A stretch of 12,344 nt of DNA from Deltaproteobacteria bacterium (GTDB lineage Bacteria > Bdellovibrionota_F > JAHFAK01). The notes beneath the pieces are model-generated. The model saw only the letters and a program-made list of their open reading frames with translations. It did not search any database and was not told where the DNA came from. The position numbers and the translations under genes are program-made. This document shows, piece after piece, positions 1 through 12,344 of this stretch; position 1 is the first letter of the stretch, and every line of letters begins with the position of its first letter. The stretch lies in the NCBI GenBank assembly GCA_023250585.1, contig JAHFAK010000022.1, positions 1-12,344 on the forward strand. The letters run 5' to 3'.

Positions 1-106
1 AACGCTAAAACTCCTAAGGCAATCGAGTACAGCCTGGTTTCATGCGAATCTGCACGGCTTGTAGTAATGAGTGGGACTTGTGCGCCTACGACAATGCCTG
101 CACTTT
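1..106 (-). pseudogene. displaced 3'-end fragment of a phosphate butyryltransferase gene
   Basis: Read on the minus strand, this stretch encodes the last ~34 residues of Ptb (AGIVVGAQVPLITTSRAD and onward to GVLA), identical in protein to the C-terminus of the intact ptb at 1165-2052. Bases 4-106 align to 1175-1277 with about 8 mismatches in 103; every mismatch I can read is synonymous, and bases 55-106 are identical. Homology stops abruptly at 106/107, so the fragment has no 5' part or start. Its 3' part runs off the window, and the last codon or two already differ from the intact gene. It is either the original ptb 3' end displaced by the inserted segment carrying vapBC, or the stump of a second ptb copy. 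The fragment alone cannot make an active enzyme. Confidence 0.85.
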
Positions 107-131
107 AGCAGAAAGCAGAAGGTGGGGACCG

Positions 132-229
132 ACATATGAACAACATATGAATTGTACATATGCCTACACCCCAACGGACGGGAAGTAGCGTCACACCTAT
201 TTCACACCTATTTCAATTTCACCTATTTC
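132..229. repeat. short iterated motifs upstream of vapBC
   Basis: The gap between the ptb fragment and the vapBC promoter holds two sets of short repeats. ACATATG occurs at 132-138, 143-149 and 156-162. CACCTATTTC occurs at 194-203, 205-214 and 220-229, the first two as an 11-bp tandem. The approximately helical spacing (11, 13, 11 and 15 bp) would suit protein binding, but the stretch could equally be low-complexity sequence left by the rearrangement. No gene is visible between 107 and 257. Confidence 0.4.
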
Positions 230-257
230 TATTGGGAAAATCTGAATATTTTTTGCC

Positions 258-286
258 TTGACAAATACGATTAAGTATCGTATGCT
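258..286 (+). promoter_or_regulatory. vapBC promoter, TTGACA-N17-TATGCT
   Basis: A perfect -35 box TTGACA (258-263), a 17-bp spacer and a -10 box TATGCT (281-286). Transcription should start about 7 nt later, at ~293-294, which coincides with the ATG at 294. The vapB message is therefore predicted to be leaderless. The TTG of the -35 box happens to be in frame with vapB, so a gene caller could wrongly choose it as the start. Confidence 0.75.
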
Positions 287-295
287 TTATCGTAT
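265..295. promoter_or_regulatory. candidate VapB operator: three ATCGTAT half-sites at 12-bp steps
   Basis: ATACGAT at 265-271 faces ATCGTAT at 277-283, forming a 7-bp-arm palindrome with a 5-bp centre, and ATCGTAT recurs directly at 289-295. The three sites begin at 265, 277 and 289. They cover the spacer, the -10 box and the predicted transcription start. Ribbon-helix-helix antitoxins normally bind such short repeats as dimers, so autorepression by VapB or VapBC is the likely role. That role is inferred; the repeats are directly visible. Confidence 0.65.
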
Positions 296-506
296 GAAAG
301 TAACTGCCTTACTACCCGATCAATTGATTGATGAGATACGTCGTTTCACCAAAGGGAAAACACTAACAGAATCGCTCATGCTGGCGCTAAAAGAATGGCT
401 GACATTCAAAAAATTGGCTCAGCTCAATGAAAAGATTAAGAAAAATCCTTTACAATTCAAAAAGGGATTTACCGCGGAAAAGATACGCACACTCAATCGA
501 AAATAA
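294..506 (+). CDS. vapB: VapB-type ribbon-helix-helix antitoxin
   Basis: Predicted 70-residue antitoxin that would neutralise the PIN toxin encoded next and bind its own promoter. The N-terminus (MKVTALLPDQLIDEIRRF) has the beta-strand plus first helix of an RHH/MetJ-Arc DNA-binding fold. A second helix (LTESLMLALKEWL) follows, then a basic, probably flexible toxin-binding tail. I chose ATG 294 because the fold begins there and because 258-286 is the promoter; upstream in-frame TTG 258 and ATG 282 lie inside the -35 box and the -10 region. No Shine-Dalgarno is present, in line with a leaderless transcript. Its stop overlaps the vapC start by one base (TAATG), so translation is probably coupled. 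Confidence 0.85.
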   Translation: MKVTALLPDQLIDEIRRFTKGKTLTESLMLALKEWLTFKKLAQLNEKIKKNPLQFKKGFTAEKIRTLNRK

Positions 507-898
507 TGATTATTGTAGATACGTCAATTTGGATTGAATTTTTTAGAGGAAATGAGAATATTTTTTCTCCACTTAAAGGTGAACTTGAAAATCAAAATAT
601 AATCGGGCTCGAATGTGTTTTTGGAGAATTATTGCAGGGCGCACGGAACAAAAAGGAAAATAGTCTTATTATTGAGTATTGGAATACATTGACTAAACAT
701 GATGAAAAAGGCCTTTGGCTTGAAGCAGGAATGATATCAGCTGAGGAAAAATACTATTCAAAAGGAATCGGTCTTATCGATGCTTTTCTTATCGCTGCAC
801 GAAAGCGCTTCAATGCAACGCTCTGGTCGCTCGATAAAAAATTACTTTTGGTATTATCAAAACATGAAAAATACGATTCGTCATTTATGCTCAATTAA
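506..898 (+). CDS. vapC: VapC-type PIN-domain ribonuclease toxin
   Basis: 130-residue PIN-domain protein of typical VapC length. VapC toxins are Mg2+-dependent endoribonucleases that cut tRNA or rRNA and stop translation unless bound by VapB. The acidic metal-binding set is visible: D5 in IIVDTSIWIEFF, E41 in FGELLQGAR, D92 in GLIDAFLIAAR and D110 in LWSLDKKL. The gene starts one base inside the vapB stop codon, the usual antitoxin-first arrangement. A hairpin terminator follows 18 nt after its stop. All catalytic positions are intact, so I expect a functional toxin; the exact RNA target cannot be read from the sequence. Confidence 0.92.
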   Translation: MIIVDTSIWIEFFRGNENIFSPLKGELENQNIIGLECVFGELLQGARNKKENSLIIEYWNTLTKHDEKGLWLEAGMISAEEKYYSKGIGLIDAFLIAARKRFNATLWSLDKKLLLVLSKHEKYDSSFMLN

Positions 899-916
899 CC
901 ATGTAATATAGAAAAG

Positions 917-948
917 CCAAGGGATCGAGTTCTTACCTGATCCCTTGG
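917..948. terminator. bidirectional hairpin terminator between vapC and the small ORF
   Basis: A perfect 10-bp stem (CCAAGGGATC at 917-926, GATCCCTTGG at 939-948) with a 12-nt loop. It lies between two convergent genes, vapC (ends 898) and the ORF ending at 968. It is followed by TAGAAATTTT on the plus strand and CTTTTC on the minus strand. The T-runs are short, so it may be a weak intrinsic terminator working in both directions. Confidence 0.65.
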
Positions 949-967
949 TAGAAATTTTAGGCAATTA

Positions 968-1153
968 TTATTTATCGGAGCTTTCTTTACTCAAACATTG
1001 TTGTACGGCGTAATCTGTTAAAGAACTAATCATTTTTTCTTTACTATACGATAGTTTTGATTTTGAGTAAGCATCATGTGCATCTCTTATAGCTTTTTCT
1101 GAACAGGTTAATTCTGCCTCAGACAAATCCTTGTGTGTAAATTGGGGAGCCAA
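968..1153 (-). CDS. small hydrophilic protein of unknown function
   Basis: 61 residues, highly charged, with no membrane segment or motif I recognise; probably mostly helical (CSEKAIRDAHDAYSKSKL). It starts at a TTG only 12 nt after the ptb stop and has no Shine-Dalgarno. A perfect TATAAT overlaps the ptb stop (1164-1169), 10 nt before this TTG, so a leaderless transcript like those of vapB and the hydroxyacyl-CoA dehydrogenase is plausible. The frame ends before the hairpin at 917-948, which would serve as its terminator. It lies inside the segment flanked by the duplicated ptb ends, so it may be cargo of that unit. It could also be a chance frame. Confidence 0.4.
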   Translation of the reverse strand: MAPQFTHKDLSEAELTCSEKAIRDAHDAYSKSKLSYSKEKMISSLTDYAVQQCLSKESSDK

Positions 1154-1163
1154 ATAGTAAAAA

Positions 1164-1193
1164 ATTATATTTGGGCTAAAACTCCCAAGGCAA
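1164..1193 (-). promoter_or_regulatory. candidate promoter inside the ptb 3' end, TTGCCT-N18-TATAAT
   Basis: On the minus strand, TTGCCT (1188-1193) and a perfect TATAAT (1164-1169) are separated by 18 bp. They lie across the last codons and stop of ptb and point at the small ORF starting at 1153. The weak -35 box and the position within coding sequence make this tentative. Confidence 0.35.
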
Positions 1194-2052
1194 TTGAATA
1201 CAATCGTGTTTCATGCGAATCTGCGCGGCTTGTAGTAATGAGTGGGACTTGTGCGCCTACGACAATGCCTGCACTTTTAGGCTGGGGATCTGCCAGATAC
1301 ATAAGCGCTTTGTAAACGGCGTTGCCCACTTCAATGTTAGGAACAATCAGTAAATCTGCATCGCCACCGACGGAACTGATATAGCCTTTCATTTTGCATG
1401 CTTTTTTACTCAATGCTAGATCAAGAGCCATTGGGCCTTCAATAATTGCATTGGGTATTTTCATGTGTGCAAGCGCATGTGCATCTACGGTTGATTGCAT
1501 TTTGGGATTTACTTTTTCAACTGCTGCAATACAGGCAATTTTGGGTTGTGTAATACCCAATTTTTCAAGTAACTCGAGTCCGTTCATCAGAATTGCTTTT
1601 TTTTGTTCGAGATTTGGATTGATATTGATCCCGCCATCAGTGAGCCCTAGAAGCTTTGGATACACGGGTGTCTCAATAAAACCTACGCTTGAAAATAATC
1701 GCCCAGTTCGTAACCCTTGTGTTTTATCAAGGCATGCGCGAATAAATGTTGCAGTTGAAACTTGTCCTTTCATGAGAAGATGAGCTGTGTTATTTCGCAC
1801 AAGTGAACAGCAGACAGAAGAAGTTCTCTCAGCATCTTCTTCATTGTAGAATTCAAACCCGTTTGTTTTAATTGTATGCTCATGACAAAGTTGCTGGAGC
1901 GATTCCTTATTACCTACAAGTATTGGAGTAATGATCTTAAGGTCCGTGGCTTCTCTCAGAGCAATAAGTATCTCAGCTTCGAAAGGATTAGCAACGGCAA
2001 CTCTCTTTTGTGCGCCTTGAGCTTTCTCAAGTATGTCTTTAAATGATGTCAT
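1165..2052 (-). CDS. ptb: phosphate butyryltransferase (phosphotransbutyrylase)
   Basis: 295 residues, full length for the PTA/PTB family. The enzyme exchanges the CoA of butyryl-CoA (often also isobutyryl- or valeryl-CoA) for phosphate in the cytosol. The acyl phosphate then feeds butyrate kinase for ATP, or the reaction runs in reverse to activate the acid. Family signatures are visible in order: LLMKGQVSTATFIRACLD, GLTDGGININP, AAVEKVNPKMQSTVDA, EGPMALDLALS, GGDADLLIVPNIEVGNAVYK and the C-terminal VPLITTSRADSHETRLYSIA. GPMALDLALS and DADLLIVPNIEVGN favour Ptb over acetate-type Pta. It lies 86 nt downstream of icmF on the same strand and is probably cotranscribed; the gap holds only a short palindrome. 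Its last ~34 codons are duplicated at 1-106. No butyrate kinase gene follows within the window. Confidence 0.93.
   Translation of the reverse strand: MTSFKDILEKAQGAQKRVAVANPFEAEILIALREATDLKIITPILVGNKESLQQLCHEHTIKTNGFEFYNEEDAERTSSVCCSLVRNNTAHLLMKGQVSTATFIRACLDKTQGLRTGRLFSSVGFIETPVYPKLLGLTDGGININPNLEQKKAILMNGLELLEKLGITQPKIACIAAVEKVNPKMQSTVDAHALAHMKIPNAIIEGPMALDLALSKKACKMKGYISSVGGDADLLIVPNIEVGNAVYKALMYLADPQPKSAGIVVGAQVPLITTSRADSHETRLYSIALGVLAQI
1175..1277. repeat. direct-repeat copy B within ptb (partner of 4-106)
   Basis: This 103-bp stretch of the ptb 3' end repeats bases 4-106 in the same orientation, offset by 1171 bp. The half nearer the gene interior (1226-1277) is identical in both copies. 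The half nearer the stop carries about eight scattered synonymous differences. The segment between the copies holds vapBC, the hairpin and the small ORF. Confidence 0.85.
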
Positions 2053-2138: not shown

Positions 2139-5100
2139 CTACATATTCCTTCTATATTTCCCACCAACTTCATAGAGTGCCTGTGTAATCTGTCCAAGCG
2201 AACAACATTTCGTTGCTTCCAAAAGCTCCTCAAAAAGATTTCCGCCAGCAAGTGCTTTTTGCTGTAATTGCTGAAGTTGAATTTTTGCCTGCACGGGATA
2301 TGTTTTATGAAGGTTTGTAAGCATTTCAATCTGATATTTTTTTTCCGCTTCAGTCGAGCGAATCACTTCTTGGGGGATTATTGTTGGCGAACCTTCACTT
2401 GATAAAAAGGTGTTTACCCCAATGATTGGAAGTTTACCTGAATGTTTCAATGATTCATAATAGAGAGATTCATCTTGAATTTTTGCTCGTTGATACATGG
2501 ATTCCATAGCTCCAAGTACCCCGCCACGGGTAGTAATCCGGTCGAATTCAGAAAGCACTGCTTCCTCAACTAAATCGGTAAGCTCTTCAATGATGAATGA
2601 TCCTTGTAATGGATTTTCATTTTTTGCGAGCCCAAGTTCATGATTAATAACGAGCTGAATTGCCATTGCTCGTCGAACCGATTCTTCGGTGGGAGTTGTA
2701 ATTGCTTCGTCATACGCATTTGTGTGCAGTGAATTGCAATTGTCATAAATAGCGTAGAGTGCCTGCAGTGTTGTACGAATATCATTAAAAGCAATTTCTT
2801 GGGCATGAAGCGATCGGCCAGAAGTTTGAATATGATATTTTAATTTCTGTGAGCGTTCTTGTGCGTTGTATTTCAACTTCATGGCCTTTGCCCAAATAAG
2901 ACGAGCCACACGGCCAATGACCGAAAATTCAGGATCAATTCCATTTGAAAAAAAGAAAGAAAAGTTTGGAACAAATTCATCAATCTTCATTCCTCTCGAA
3001 CGATAGTATTCAACATAGGTGAAGCCATTTGCGAGCGTAAATGCAAGTTGGGTAATCGGATTTGCGCCTGCTTCGGCAATATGGTAACCCGAAATAGAGA
3101 CTGAATAAAAATTTCGTACATTATTTTTTGAAAAATATTCTTGAACATCACCCATTAATTTCAGTGAAAATTCTTTTGAGAAGATACACGTGTTTTGTGC
3201 TTGATCTTCTTTTAAAATATCAGCTTGCACCGTTCCTCGAACCTGCGCGAGTGTATCAAATTTTATTTTTTCATATATATCTTTTGAAAGAACTTGATCC
3301 CCGGTAGTTCCCAAAAGCATCAGCCCAAGGCCATCATTACCTTGAGGAATAGCTCCCTGGTAATGAGGCCGTGTTTTATTCTTATACAGTTCATTAATCT
3401 TTTTAATAACTGAATCGGTGAGCCCATTTTGTCGAATATATATTTCACATGCTTGATCAATCGCTACATTCATAAAAAAAGCGGTGATTGTTGGGGCAGG
3501 GCCGTTAATCGTCATTGAAACCGATGTATAGGGATCGGCAAGATTAAATCCTGAATAGAGTTTTTTTGCATCATCGAGACAGCATATTGAAACTCCTGCA
3601 TTCCCAATTTTTCCATAAATATCTGGGCGTATCGCCGGGTCTTCTCCATACAGAGTTACTGAATCAAAAGCTGTAGAAAGGCGTTTTGCTTTTAGACCTC
3701 GAGAAACATAATGAAAACGTTTGTTGGTTCGCTCAGGCCCGCCTTCACCAGCAAACATTCTCGTTGGATCTTCTTCTTCCCGTTTAAAATAAAATACGCC
3801 AGCAGCAAAGGGAAATTCGCCGGGCACATTTTCTTTCAAAGTCCATTTCAAAATATCTCCCCAATTTTTGTAGCGGGGAAGAGCAATTTTGGGAATGAGT
3901 AAATGTGAGAGGGATTCAGTATGGGTTGTAATTTTGATTTCTTTAGTGCGAACTTTATACGAAAAAAATTCATTTTTATATTTCTGAACTTTTTCATTCC
4001 AAGACTCGAGAACTTCAGAATTTGGTTCATCTAATTGAGATTTTAAAGCATCAAAAAGGTTTTCTAAGTCTTTGTTTTTTTCTTTAAGCAAAGAAATCGT
4101 TGTGTGAACACTGTATAATCGATTAGCAATTGATGATTGCTCTTCTACCCATTTGTTATAGTCTCGAACCGTTTCGGCAATTTCTGAAAGATAGCGAATG
4201 CGTTCATTGGGAATAATTGAAGTAATTCCTTGTACTTCTTTTCGCAATTCTTTCGGTATCGAAATATGCATGTTTGCTTTGGTATTAAGTAATTCAAGAA
4301 GCGAGACGTATAATTGATATACCCCGTGATTATTAAATTCTGAAGCAATAGTTGGAAAAACAGGAAGCTCATGTGGTTGTGTATCAAAACGATTATGAGT
4401 CCGCTTATATTGTTTTCTAATATCTCGAAGCGCGTCTTCGGCGCCACGTTTGTCAGCTTTATTGAGTACGATCATATCGGCATAGTCGATCATATCGATT
4501 TTTTCGAGTTGCGTTGGCGCGCCAAATTCAGGTGTCATAACATAGAGAGAAAGATCGCAAAGGCCGACTATTTCGGTATCACTCTGGCCAATTCCCGATG
4601 TTTCAAGGATGATAAGATCAAAGCCAGCATTTCGAAGAAGTGCTAGTACTTCACGAGCATGAGAAGAAAGTGCCATATTCGCCTGCCGTGTTGCTTGCGA
4701 ACGCATAAATACGCGAGGATTAAAAACTGAATTCATTCGGAGTCGATCACCCAGCAATGCTCCGCCTGATTTGCGTTTTGAAGGATCATACGAAAGAATT
4801 GCTATCTTTTTTTGCGGGAAATCAAAAAGAAAGCGTTGGACAATTTCGTCAATCAGTGACGATTTGCCTGAGCCTCCGGTTCCTGTGATACCAATTACCG
4901 GAACTTTGTATTTGGGATTTAGATTTAATAATTCCGATGTATTGATTCCAACTTCATTTTCAATGACTGAAATAAGTCGTGCTAAATAAGCAAAATTGTC
5001 TCTCGTAATTTTTTTCGGATCATACGTAACGTTATTTGTTATAGAAAAGTCAGTCTTTTGTACCATATCGCTAATCATGCCTTGAAGGCCTAATTTTCGC

Positions 5101-5477
5101 CCATCATCAGGTAAGTAAATATTTGCTATTCCATATTTTATAAGTTCATCTCTTTCTTGCGGAAGAATAACTCCGCCTCCGCCGCCGAAAATTTTGATGT
5201 GGCTATACTTCGCTTTTTGTAAAAGATCATGCATATATTTGAAGTATTCCATATGCCCACCTTGATAGGATGATATGGCAATACCTTGCACGTCTTCTTG
5301 GATAGCACACGAGACAATATCATCGACGCTGCGATTATGGCCTAGATGAATAACTTCCACTCCACTCGCCTGAAGCAATCGGCGAATAATGTTAATGGTG
5401 ACATCATGACCATCAAAAAGCGATGCCGCTGTCACAAAGCGGATTTTATGTTTAGGTGTGTAGTGTTCTGTATTCAA
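2139..5477 (-). CDS. icmF: fused isobutyryl-CoA mutase, adenosylcobalamin-dependent, with built-in G-protein chaperone
   Basis: 1112 residues, close to the usual IcmF length. It interconverts isobutyryl-CoA and n-butyryl-CoA with adenosylcobalamin. Domains: B12-binding (about 10-140; D22-G-H24 with His24 the expected cobalt ligand, SYQGGH near 70, GGGGGVI near 98); MeaI-type GTPase chaperone (about 190-400; Walker A GTGGSGKS 199-206, ETSGIGQSD 292-300, NKAD 339-342); linker; then a substrate-binding TIM barrel from about 530 to the end, closing with [10 protein letters not shown]. Against methylmalonyl-CoA mutase (aligned from memory), Phe575 in RMFAGEGG replaces the substrate Tyr and Gln761 in KEDQAQNT the carboxylate-binding Arg. 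This favours isobutyryl-CoA over methylmalonyl-CoA. The start is TTG without a Shine-Dalgarno, 12 nt after an MNT gene. A displaced copy of its first codons, preceded by ATG and a promoter, lies at 6821-6853, so the present start is probably secondary. Confidence 0.95.
5454..5475. repeat. 22-bp direct repeat, copy at the icmF 5' end
   Basis: These 22 bases encode NTEHYTP of IcmF (minus strand) and recur exactly, in the same orientation, at 6821-6842. The flanking bases differ on both sides. The two copies bound a block with a HEPN/MNT pair, a large inverted repeat and an ATPase relic. Confidence 0.9.
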
Positions 5478-5489
5478 GGTGTATTATTT

Positions 5490-5816
5490 TTAATGGGTGA
5501 GATTTATTTTTATACCTTCTTTTTTGGCAATTTCGAGTATAACTGATCCTGTCTTTTTTCGTATTTCATGAGTTCCTGCCGGAATTGGTTCTATTCGCGG
5601 TTCAACATGGACGGTCAATCTCCAGAGAAGCTTGTCATATTTATAAGGATTGTTATTAAAATCATCCGAAATAACAATGAGGTCAATATCGCTATACTCA
5701 TGTGCTTTCCCTTTTGCGTGTGATCCAAAAAGGATTGCTCGAGGTTTTGTAATTCCATTTTGTTCAAGACATTTAAGATATTCGATTATTTTTCTTCTAA
5801 TTTCTTTCTTAACCAT
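5490..5816 (-). CDS. minimal nucleotidyltransferase (MNT) of a HEPN/MNT toxin-antitoxin pair
   Basis: 108 residues, a stand-alone polymerase-beta-like nucleotidyltransferase. The active-site signature is intact: G31-S32 in LFGSHAKGKAHEYSDIDLIVIS, the acidic pair D43-x-D45, and a third acid, probably E76 in PRIEPIP. In studied HEPN/MNT pairs (HepT/MntA) the MNT protein is the antitoxin and adds AMP groups to the HEPN toxin; I infer the same here. The gene starts 31 nt inside the upstream HEPN gene, so translation is likely coupled. Its stop is only 12 nt before the icmF TTG start, so transcription of this pair should continue into icmF and ptb. A related but diverged copy lies at 8412-8732. 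Confidence 0.88.
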   Translation of the reverse strand: MVKKEIRRKIIEYLKCLEQNGITKPRAILFGSHAKGKAHEYSDIDLIVISDDFNNNPYKYDKLLWRLTVHVEPRIEPIPAGTHEIRKKTGSVILEIAKKEGIKINLTH

Positions 5817-6196
5817 AATTGTAAGTTCTCCACTCTTTTTAATATCATTTCTGATTCTCTTTTAGTAAGAGATTTATATAATTTATATCGAAAATCGGGA
5901 TATTGTCCTTCGATTTGAAATCGATTCATCTCAGCAAGGAATTCGAGATCATCTTTTTCTACCACTACATTAGACTTCTGTGCAAGAAGAACTAAGTTAT
6001 GTGTGAAAGGAGGAATTTCTCTGTGAAGTGCAACAAAATGAGCTTTTAAGATCTTTTCTAATGATAAATGAGCAAAAAAAAGACTCTCTAAGTATTTTCT
6101 ATTTTTATAGAGAATTTTTGCTGTTTCGATATCGTTGTTGGATACTTGTAGCCAGTATGTCAATTGCTCTTTAATATTGATAGACATATTCATCAT
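5786..6196 (-). CDS. HEPN-domain protein, probable ribonuclease toxin of a HEPN/MNT pair
   Basis: 136-residue all-helical HEPN protein (PF05168-like). Visible parts are an N-terminal helix with TYWLQVSNNDIETAKILY, the core helix LESLFFAHLSLEKILKAHFVAL and the turn H58-R-E-I-P-P-F-T-H66-N. HEPN toxins are metal-independent RNases using an R-x4-6-H pair. Here R59 and H66 fit that spacing, although I cannot be sure they are the catalytic pair. Three Met codons lie close together at the start (M1, M2, M4), so the start is uncertain by a few residues. A TATAGT about 12-18 nt before the ATG may be the -10 box. The next gene, MNT, overlaps by 31 nt. The pair lies within the block bounded by the 22-bp direct repeats. 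Confidence 0.82.
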   Translation of the reverse strand: MMNMSINIKEQLTYWLQVSNNDIETAKILYKNRKYLESLFFAHLSLEKILKAHFVALHREIPPFTHNLVLLAQKSNVVVEKDDLEFLAEMNRFQIEGQYPDFRYKLYKSLTKRESEMILKRVENLQLWLRKKLEEK

Positions 6197-6249: not shown

Positions 6250-6396
6250 CTCAGTTATTAGGGAGTAGGTAAGTTCTAAAAAAGATTTCTATCGACGTCG
6301 CTTTCCTGTTCTTAATAGTATTATGGAAGCGACGTCGATAGAAATCTTTTTTAGAACTTACCTACTCCCTAACTCACCCATTAACTCATAACTGAG
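6250..6396. repeat. large inverted repeat: perfect 46-bp arms with 23-nt loop
   Basis: Bases 6258-6303 and 6327-6372 are exact reverse complements over 46 bp. The arms start TTAGGGAGTAGGTAAG and end near the self-complementary CGACGTCG. Outer 9-bp arms CTCAGTTAT (6250-6258) and ATAACTGAG (6388-6396) extend the symmetry, with a 15-nt asymmetric insert on the right (6373-6387). No coding frame lies inside. It could be a foldback or MITE-like element, paired terminal repeats left after loss of an insertion sequence, or a very strong RNA hairpin upstream of the HEPN gene. The perfection of the arms points to recent origin or active maintenance. Confidence 0.9.
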
Positions 6397-6438: not shown

Positions 6439-6718
6439 TCATATGTCTTCATCAAGTGTTTTGTGAGGATCTAAAGAAGACAAAAATTCTGTGCATGGTA
6501 AACACTGAATTTTATCTATCATGAGACGCTCTTTTCCACGGTACAAAAGAAATGCACGAGCTTCGGGATAATCGACAAGAAAAGTTTTGATCCCCCGAAG
6601 ATCTTCAGGTCGAATTTTATACGGGGAGTTTTTGAATTTCATCAATAACAATAATTCTTTTTCCTGGATTGCCTTGTATTAATTCTCGAAGTCTCTCTGG
6701 CCGAGCGCTATAGGTTCG
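6439..6718 (-). pseudogene. remnant of an AAA/DUF4143-type ATPase gene with internal deletion
   Basis: Two pieces of one protein family are joined out of frame. Codons near 6718-6622 encode RPERLRELIQGNPGKRIIVIDEIQKLP, the region before and including the Walker B segment (VIDEIQ) of AAA_14 ATPases. The following bases encode, in another frame, PYKIRPEDLRGIKTFLVDYPEARAFLLYRG and RLMIDKIQCLPCTEF, the C-terminal domain typical of the same proteins. Everything between, normally a few hundred residues, is missing, as is the Walker A region. The shared TCCCCG at the joint suggests deletion through microhomology. Each piece still has an open frame (6617-6853 and 6439-6651), but neither can be an active ATPase. 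Confidence 0.8.
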
Positions 6719-6740
6719 GACTGCAAGTCCTGAGGCGACA

Positions 6741-6800
6741 TCCGCCGAAGCTCCCGCGCATTCACCCACGGCATATGCCATGCTACTCTGCGAAGGCGGA
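6741..6800. repeat. imperfect palindromic repeat TCCGCCGAAGC ... GCGAAGGCGGA
   Basis: TCCGCCGAAGC (6741-6751) and GCGAAGGCGGA (6790-6800) form an inverted repeat with 6-bp perfect outer arms (TCCGCC/GGCGGA). This GC-rich patch stands out from its AT-rich surroundings. Such TCCGCC/GGCGGA palindromes occur as dispersed repeats in several bacterial groups. It separates the icmF 5'-end copy from the ATPase relic and stays in frame with both, producing a chimeric reading frame. Confidence 0.6.
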
Positions 6801-6820
6801 TAGATAAAAGCCTCCATATG

Positions 6821-6853
6821 AGGTGTGTAGTGTTCTGTATTCTTTTGTTCCAT
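6821..6853 (-). pseudogene. displaced 5' end of icmF
   Basis: Minus-strand codons from ATG 6853 read MEQKNTEHYTP. NTEHYTP and its 22 bases (6821-6842) match the first codons of icmF exactly. After Pro the frame runs into unrelated repeat sequence. A promoter at 6865-6893 ends 11 nt before the ATG. The simplest reading is that icmF once began here as [14 protein letters not shown], and that the block now between 5476 and 6820 separated the gene from its start and promoter. Confidence 0.65.
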
Positions 6854-12201: not shown

Positions 12202-12344
12202 ATGAAAGCATTACCTAAAAAAGTATTTATCACCGCAGGCTACAACACAACCTTCTTCGGCGCCGGCCGCAAGGAATTTAATCCCAAACAGCCAATGCCG
12301 ACTTTTGAAACATATCTCAAGGAAGCAGCTGAAGGGGTTATGAA
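12202..12344 (+). CDS. thiolase (acetyl-CoA acetyltransferase family), 5' part only
   Basis: The first 47 codons of a gene cut by the window end. The start MKALPKKVFITAGYNTTFFG and the following GRKEFNPKQPMPTFETYLKEAAEGVM resemble the N-termini of a thiolase subfamily found beside 3-hydroxyacyl-CoA dehydrogenase genes. The catalytic Cys and later motifs are outside the window, so the assignment rests on this N-terminus and the neighbour. ATG 12202 lies 5 nt after the dehydrogenase stop. A thiolase here would join or cleave acetyl-CoA and acyl-CoA, the step directly adjoining that of the dehydrogenase. Confidence 0.7.
   Translation, partial: MKALPKKVFITAGYNTTFFGAGRKEFNPKQPMPTFETYLKEAAEGVM

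Follow-up and report, generated by a model that had tools for sequence, protein, structure and literature searches.

Toxin-antitoxin and defence-like modules bracketed by duplicated housekeeping-gene ends in a deltaproteobacterial genome

The ptb locus and its displaced 3′ end

We consider here the first 12,344 nucleotides of contig JAHFAK010000022.1 from the assembly GCA_023250585.1 of a Deltaproteobacteria bacterium (Bdellovibrionota_F), referred to below as the window, whose first base is also the first base of the contig we call C66. At its left end a putative VapBC toxin-antitoxin (TA) pair lies between an intact ptb-like phosphotransacylase gene and a displaced copy of the 3′ end of that same gene (Table 1). 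The models that score best for the ptb gene are phosphate butyryltransferases, all of them under their cut-offs. The PIN-domain toxin gene, with a small overlapping open reading frame (ORF) ahead of it in one predicted operon, qualifies the pair as VapBC.

A repeat search of the window returned the two ptb ends as a direct repeat of 103 bp (4-106 against 1175-1277; 92% identity, 95 of 103 bp), and a scan of the window for further ptb-like sequence found none besides this fragment and the gene. The eight differing bases fall in seven codons (CGC/CGT, ACA/ACC, CGA/AGG, TTG/CTG, TAT/TAC, TCA/TCG and TTG/TTA), all of them synonymous and confined to the stop-side half, and the inner 52 bp are without any change. 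Such clustering, with seven of 16 outer codons changed against none of 17 inner ones (Fisher p = 0.0027), is unlikely to be due to chance. A preliminary description of the locus, made from the letters alone, had reported this repeat, about eight exclusively synonymous differences on the stop side and the identical inner 52 bp, and the repeat search and the codon-by-codon comparison bear it out; its account of the unit as vapBC plus one small ORF without a recombinase agrees with the ORF list and the Pfam matches, which revealed no recombinase within the vapBC unit.

The contig ends require attention at this point. The window ends at 12344 because an assembly gap between overlapping contigs lies there: exact 121-bp copies stand on both sides of a run of 100 N (C66:12224-12565; the N gap itself at C66:12345-12444). 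At the other end, C66 opens with the same 120 bp with which contig C80 closes, and a 120-bp contig-end overlap also links C118 to C39. Considering the C118/C39 overlap and the 121-bp copies at the N gap, the sequence shared by C80 and C66 is therefore the assembler's contig overlap, and the two contigs are probably linked. The sole further copy of the ptb end in the genome, C80:19795-19914, is this same 120-bp sequence, window 1-120. Since C80 ends exactly where the dispersed repeat R1 begins (base 120/121), there must be a branch there or at base 1. One may ask whether a metagenome assembly has wrongly joined the gene ends of two strains; the position of the ptb case at a contig end, with a C80-C66 link that depends on a 120-bp overlap and hence on a branch, speaks for this. 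However, fragment, repeat, vapBC and ptb are continuous within C66, and the truA, thiG, hppA, rpsG and lepA cases described below lie inside single contigs, N-free in the stretches read, and we regard such an artefact as very unlikely.

On the C80 side the fragment reads ...GVLAL followed by a stop, and some 30 bp separate this stop from the end of a convergent DUF6922/AbiEii pair; the C80 sequence left of the fragment contains neither a butyrate kinase gene nor a second full ptb. Of the leftward extension suggested by the preliminary description, the part concerning a ptb stop proper to the fragment thus stood, whereas butyrate kinase is absent and the AbiEii pair is found instead. The locus as a whole reads as two units in tandem, the one composed of ptb, small ORF, VapBC and REP-like repeat, and the other of the ptb 3′-end fragment and the AbiEii pair.

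Two dispersed families, R1 and R2, account for positions 112-141 and 155-209; the genome contains many copies of them, frequently paired in inverted orientation at a spacing of 35-80 bp. One R1 pair, on C47, encloses a gene matching the REP-associated tyrosine transposase (RAYT) family (E=2e-18; 66 bits, under the 80-bit cut-off), and R1 and R2 are therefore taken to be REP-like repeats. R1 adjoins the ptb fragment on its inner side, and most other fragments have no such repeat; the REP-like repeat could thus be a marker of the joint rather than its cause. DNA just outside R1 and R2 copies is often arranged in tandem units of about 7-17 bp (AGCAGAAAGCAGAA; CACCTATTTC repeats), to the left as well as to the right of inverted pairs, as at window 112-209, C66:19390-20960, C33:7451-7555 and C22:4059-4166. 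The idea of R2 as an integron attC site was dropped when comparison by eye with the attC consensus gave no fit, and a tie of R1 and R2 to TA modules only was rejected, their copies adjoining other genes too. The exact R2 end, a 14-mer, gave 64 single matches in viral contigs, in keeping with its short length, and an Rfam scan of the window gave no match.

Table 1. Features of the ptb and icmF loci of the window, and gene-end duplications elsewhere in the genome (positions without a contig name are those of the window)
Feature	Position	Strand	Remarks
Displaced ptb 3′-end fragment, 34 codons	4..106	-	encoded residues identical to 1175-1277; last codon and stop in overlapping contig C80
Tandem 7-bp pair AGCAGAAAGCAGAA between fragment and R1	107..120		C80 stops exactly after the pair
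Terminus of dispersed REP-like repeat R1 (GGTGGGGACCGACATATG)	121..141	+	R1 also bounds the RAYT-type transposase gene, C47:4378-5234
Dispersed repeat R2 (TACACCCCAACGGACGGGAAGTAGCGTCACACCT), second REP-like family	155..209	+	
Putative VapB-type antitoxin, small ORF	294..506	+	stop overlaps vapC start; start codon uncertain; no family match
VapC toxin, PIN domain	506..898	+	PF01850 E=8e-8; NCBIfam VapC model below cut-off
Small ORF, 61 amino acids, between vapC and ptb	968..1153	-	without recognised family
Intact ptb-like phosphotransacylase gene	1165..2052	-	PF01515 E=3e-43; 3′ end 1165-1277 is the retained copy
icmF start, 22 bp	5454..5475	-	exact repeat at 6821-6842; icmF named by family model
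MNT/HEPN toxin-antitoxin pair between the two icmF starts	5490..6196	-	Pfam
Remnants resembling AAA_14/DUF4143 ATPase (by eye), ending in displaced icmF start	6439..6853	-	displaced copy in frame: MEQKNTEHYTP
truA 3′ ends	C73:3659-3731/4678-4750		MNT/HEPN between copies
thiG 3′ ends, three tandem copies	C54:12599-12856, 14000-14235, 15685-15820		REP + HEPN/MNT, then DUF4143 ATPase, then small antitoxin-like ORF
hppA 3′ ends	C27:593-730/1756-1893		HTH-MNT + HEPN, PADLOC PDC-M05
rpsG 3′ ends	C27:12325-12398/13824-13898		DUF4143 ATPase, PADLOC PDC-S01
lepA 3′ ends	C25:4811-4874/5633-5694		73-amino-acid + nucleotidyltransferase-like pair between; DUF4143 ATPase past fragment
dapA 3′ ends	C106:5729-5783/7941-7995		Fic protein between; DUF4143 past fragment

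Duplicated gene ends elsewhere in the genome

TA loci were found with Pfam models and their stretches screened for direct repeats; two contig sets not picked for TA genes were screened alike, followed by the DUF4143 loci. Eight gene ends are duplicated in this genome, namely the 3′ ends of ptb, thiG, truA, hppA, rpsG, lepA and dapA and the 5′ end of icmF, the last being a possible case for which the sequence evidence is weaker. All the brackets enclose a TA or defence-like gene (VapC, HEPN, MNT, the DUF4143 ATPase of PDC-S01, the PDC-M05 pair or Fic), the lepA pair being so classed by inspection, as it matched no family model; inspection is likewise the basis for the gene names thiG and dapA and for calling ORFs antitoxin-like at thiG and nucleotidyltransferase-like at lepA. 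The general layout is a gene end with one module followed by a gene-end fragment with another, and a second module past the fragment is present at ptb (AbiEii), lepA and dapA (both DUF4143) and thiG. The flanking direct repeats are long and variable (22 to 258 bp), and their inner boundaries vary from case to case.

The contigs not picked for TA genes yielded three of these cases (hppA, rpsG and lepA) in 371 kb, each enclosing a TA or defence-like unit. Screened at the protein level, 806 ORFs of this genome included six true gene-end fragments, which belong to five genes, plus one dispersed repeat, whereas a comparison set of 802 ORFs drawn from 80 loci in other genomes had none; with the set from this genome being TA-enriched, these figures express a contrast with other genomes and not a rate. 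The 2.24 Mb of this genome give 34 DUF4143, 15 HEPN, 14 AbiEii and five PIN matches, as against one HEPN in G001, the only other genome of the phylum searched. Several further candidates were discarded: gene-end duplicates in C19, C30, C42 and others were dispersed repeats, the one in C114, at the end of its contig, was a 52% paralogue, and the one at C66:12295 was the assembly overlap.

A few observations made along the way are recorded here. At locus L286 (C54), a remnant resembling, by eye, the end of an IS481-type transposase lies at ~5290-5420, just ahead of thiG copy 2. At window 6258-6372 two perfectly matching 46-bp inverted arms enclose a 23-bp loop, and similar sequence occurs on C159 and C19. 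At L331 (C34), two near-identical tRNA-Asp genes (3352-3427 and 5719-5794) stand 2.4 kb apart with sensor-like and glycosyltransferase-like ORFs between them.

Divergence of the copies and the origin of the arrays

The nature of the differences between copies bears on the origin of these arrays. Taking together the in-frame copies of ptb, hppA, lepA and thiG copy 2, 29 codons are changed, 26 of them synonymously and three not. If an unused fragment drifted neutrally, ~28% of the changes should be synonymous (p = 7e-12); if a single copy drifted while the gene stayed conserved, ~44% (p = 4e-7). Excluded from this test were truA (inner 20 bp), the inner part of which may be an unaligned joint, and dapA, both with amino-acid changes. 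The synonymous bias means that most of the divergence therefore arose while both copies ended working genes, in different lineages; the copies would then have met by recombination after diverging in different strains.

The same evidence bears on the notion of a remnant of a tandem second ptb, partly homogenised by gene conversion. Tandem ptb-like pairs do exist in other genomes (G004, G014 and G002), but these are only ~40% identical to the query, where here all 34 residues are identical, and the ptb fragment stops at a REP-like repeat in a layout shared by seven other gene ends. The preliminary description had argued from the exclusively synonymous ptb changes against a decaying second ptb, and we agree, leaving this explanation only the slimmest chance. 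A more serious proposal would be a transposition-like process that inserts a module and copies 20-250 bp of its target, with later divergence through allele replacement of the intact gene. The ~100-bp variable direct repeats around addiction modules described for Helicobacter pylori (PMC3874152; PMC1643837) fit such a process, as does a 22-bp deletion that thiG copies 2 and 3 have in common, as if a later insertion had duplicated a fragment. However, copies generated in this way start out identical and the fragment then gains amino-acid changes, contrary to the predominance of synonymous codons just described, and we consider target duplication unlikely.

Then, there is the comparison with prophage e14 in E. 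coli icd made in the preliminary description, by which the VapBC unit would bring its own ptb 3′ end and cross over in the 52-bp core; a recombinase would then have to act in trans. In its favour, the ptb case resembles e14 in icd (163 bp, PMC6379469) in layout, in having an identical block at the inner edge and in its outer differences being synonymous, and truA and rpsG again have blocks of 49-52 bp; the displaced-end layout and the divergence in working genes thus survive from that comparison. The site-specific element does not: the unit is without a recombinase, and a genome-wide search for Phage_integrase gave only three matches, all on C19 and C44, none of them near gene-end duplications. 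Boundary k-mers of the duplications were shared no more than in shuffles, save one AT-rich 5-mer, and gave no common core; the longest identical blocks between copies range from 12 to 108 bp, with only 12-22 bp at lepA, dapA and icmF, and seven other genes with different modules are involved. The gradient from an identical inner to a diverged outer part, likewise emphasised in that description, is true of ptb and is not general, being reversed in thiG copy 2 and missing at lepA and hppA, which differ throughout. We find e14-like integration quite improbable. Comparably doubtful to us is a dedicated route of integration that would use ~50 identical bp to bring TA and defence modules into housekeeping-gene ends, each entry restoring the gene, so that cassette-like tandem arrays would grow with no linked recombinase.

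Our preferred explanation, to which we assign a probability of roughly 0.55, is accretion by one-sided homologous recombination with the DNA of a relative coupled to an illegitimate joint, operating generally in this genome. Let us suppose that incoming DNA of a related strain or species carries a small TA or defence module along with the 3′ end of the housekeeping gene upstream of it. On one side a homologous crossover would take place inside the resident gene, and on the other an illegitimate joint would form; the intact gene would take the incoming end, and the old resident end would stay behind as a short fragment, with its earlier module still joined to it. In the case of ptb, the newer unit would then comprise one 3′ end with the small ORF, VapBC and the REP-like repeat, and the older unit the other 3′ end (4-106) with DUF6922/AbiEii on C80. 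Repeated rounds could give tandem arrays, as at thiG. A crossover inside the span of the fragment would produce the gradient seen at ptb, and one upstream of it copies that differ throughout, as at lepA and hppA; thiG copy 2 would need one more exchange. We note that a small circle integrating through a gene end would look alike. The modules may persist because their loss is penalised, that is, by addiction. The direction of transfer, the pairing of a homologous crossover with an illegitimate joint, and addiction as the cause of persistence are what we infer from these arrangements.

Several points weigh against accretion from relatives as just described. The truA and dapA fragments also have amino-acid changes. 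The identical blocks of ptb, truA and rpsG (52, 49 and 51 bp), each beginning at the fragment's inner edge, are more regular than random joints would be, and thiG copy 2 is identical on the stop side, contrary to a single simple crossover. The codon fit to the genome is slightly worse for the ptb fragment than for the intact end (one-sided p = 0.053), which weakly hints that the fragment, rather than the intact end, is the foreign copy. Finally, searches of relatives, with the phylum represented by two genomes, gave no empty site or donor allele: the ptb protein, searched in 59 genomes, led to neither an empty nor an occupied ptb site; among GTDB contigs the nearest ptb was 47% identical, again with no empty or occupied site; and nothing in G001 matches the ptb-vapBC region at the nucleotide level. 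A plasmid search gave only a 79-bp VapBC-like match in Leptospira.

Relation to known systems and significance

The closest mechanistic precedent is perhaps found in the type VI effector-immunity arrays of Vibrio cholerae, for which homology-facilitated illegitimate recombination has been proposed (Kirchberger et al. 2017, PMC5361080). There, and on our reading here too, a new module stands beside the conserved gene and has pushed back the former 3′ end with its earlier module, and the array has no integrase of its own (PMC5361080); unlike here, the gene is the effector itself and the loci are few, whereas in the present genome unrelated housekeeping genes receive TA and defence modules. Restriction-modification genes of H. 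pylori are reported to have inserted with long target duplications (Nobusato et al. 2000, via PMC1643837, PMC3874152). By these accounts the likeness lies in addiction-type modules within long variable target repeats without a transposase, and the difference in the TA and other modules, the preponderance of 3′ ends, the allelic (synonymous) divergence and the tandem accretion found here. Much as might be the case at ptb, the e14 element supplies the 3′ end of a gene, displacing a 163-bp native end, but it has an integrase and one site, in contrast to units of ~1.2 kb with no recombinase at many genes (PMC6379469). The orphan C-terminal modules of Rhs/CdiA proteins, as they are described, resemble our arrays in that displaced 3′ ends are kept behind a newer end; they are, however, the polymorphic toxins themselves and not neighbouring metabolic genes.

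Restriction-modification genes set within long, variable target duplications are already on record (PMC3874152, PMC1643837), and the Vibrio arrays supply the mechanism. What seems new is the placing of VapBC, HEPN/MNT, Fic and PDC modules at the ends of housekeeping genes, with an allelic footprint and, at thiG, tandem accretion, all in one genome; in the literature library searched, no paper joined homology-facilitated illegitimate recombination with toxin-antitoxin systems. TA systems are mobile, yet their fixation in populations is not understood (Van Melderen and Saavedra De Bast, PMC2654758), and the arrays described here bear on the open question of what lets small TA and defence modules travel in the absence of transposons and integrases. 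If our explanation is correct, a model put forward so far for restriction-modification genes and for the immunity arrays of type VI systems would extend to ordinary TA and defence modules, with the 3′ ends of essential genes (those of S7, LepA and DapA) acting as landing places. Gene-end fragments with mostly synonymous divergence would constitute a footprint searchable in any genome, one that would mark the entry point of a module, the order of arrival and a relative as the donor.

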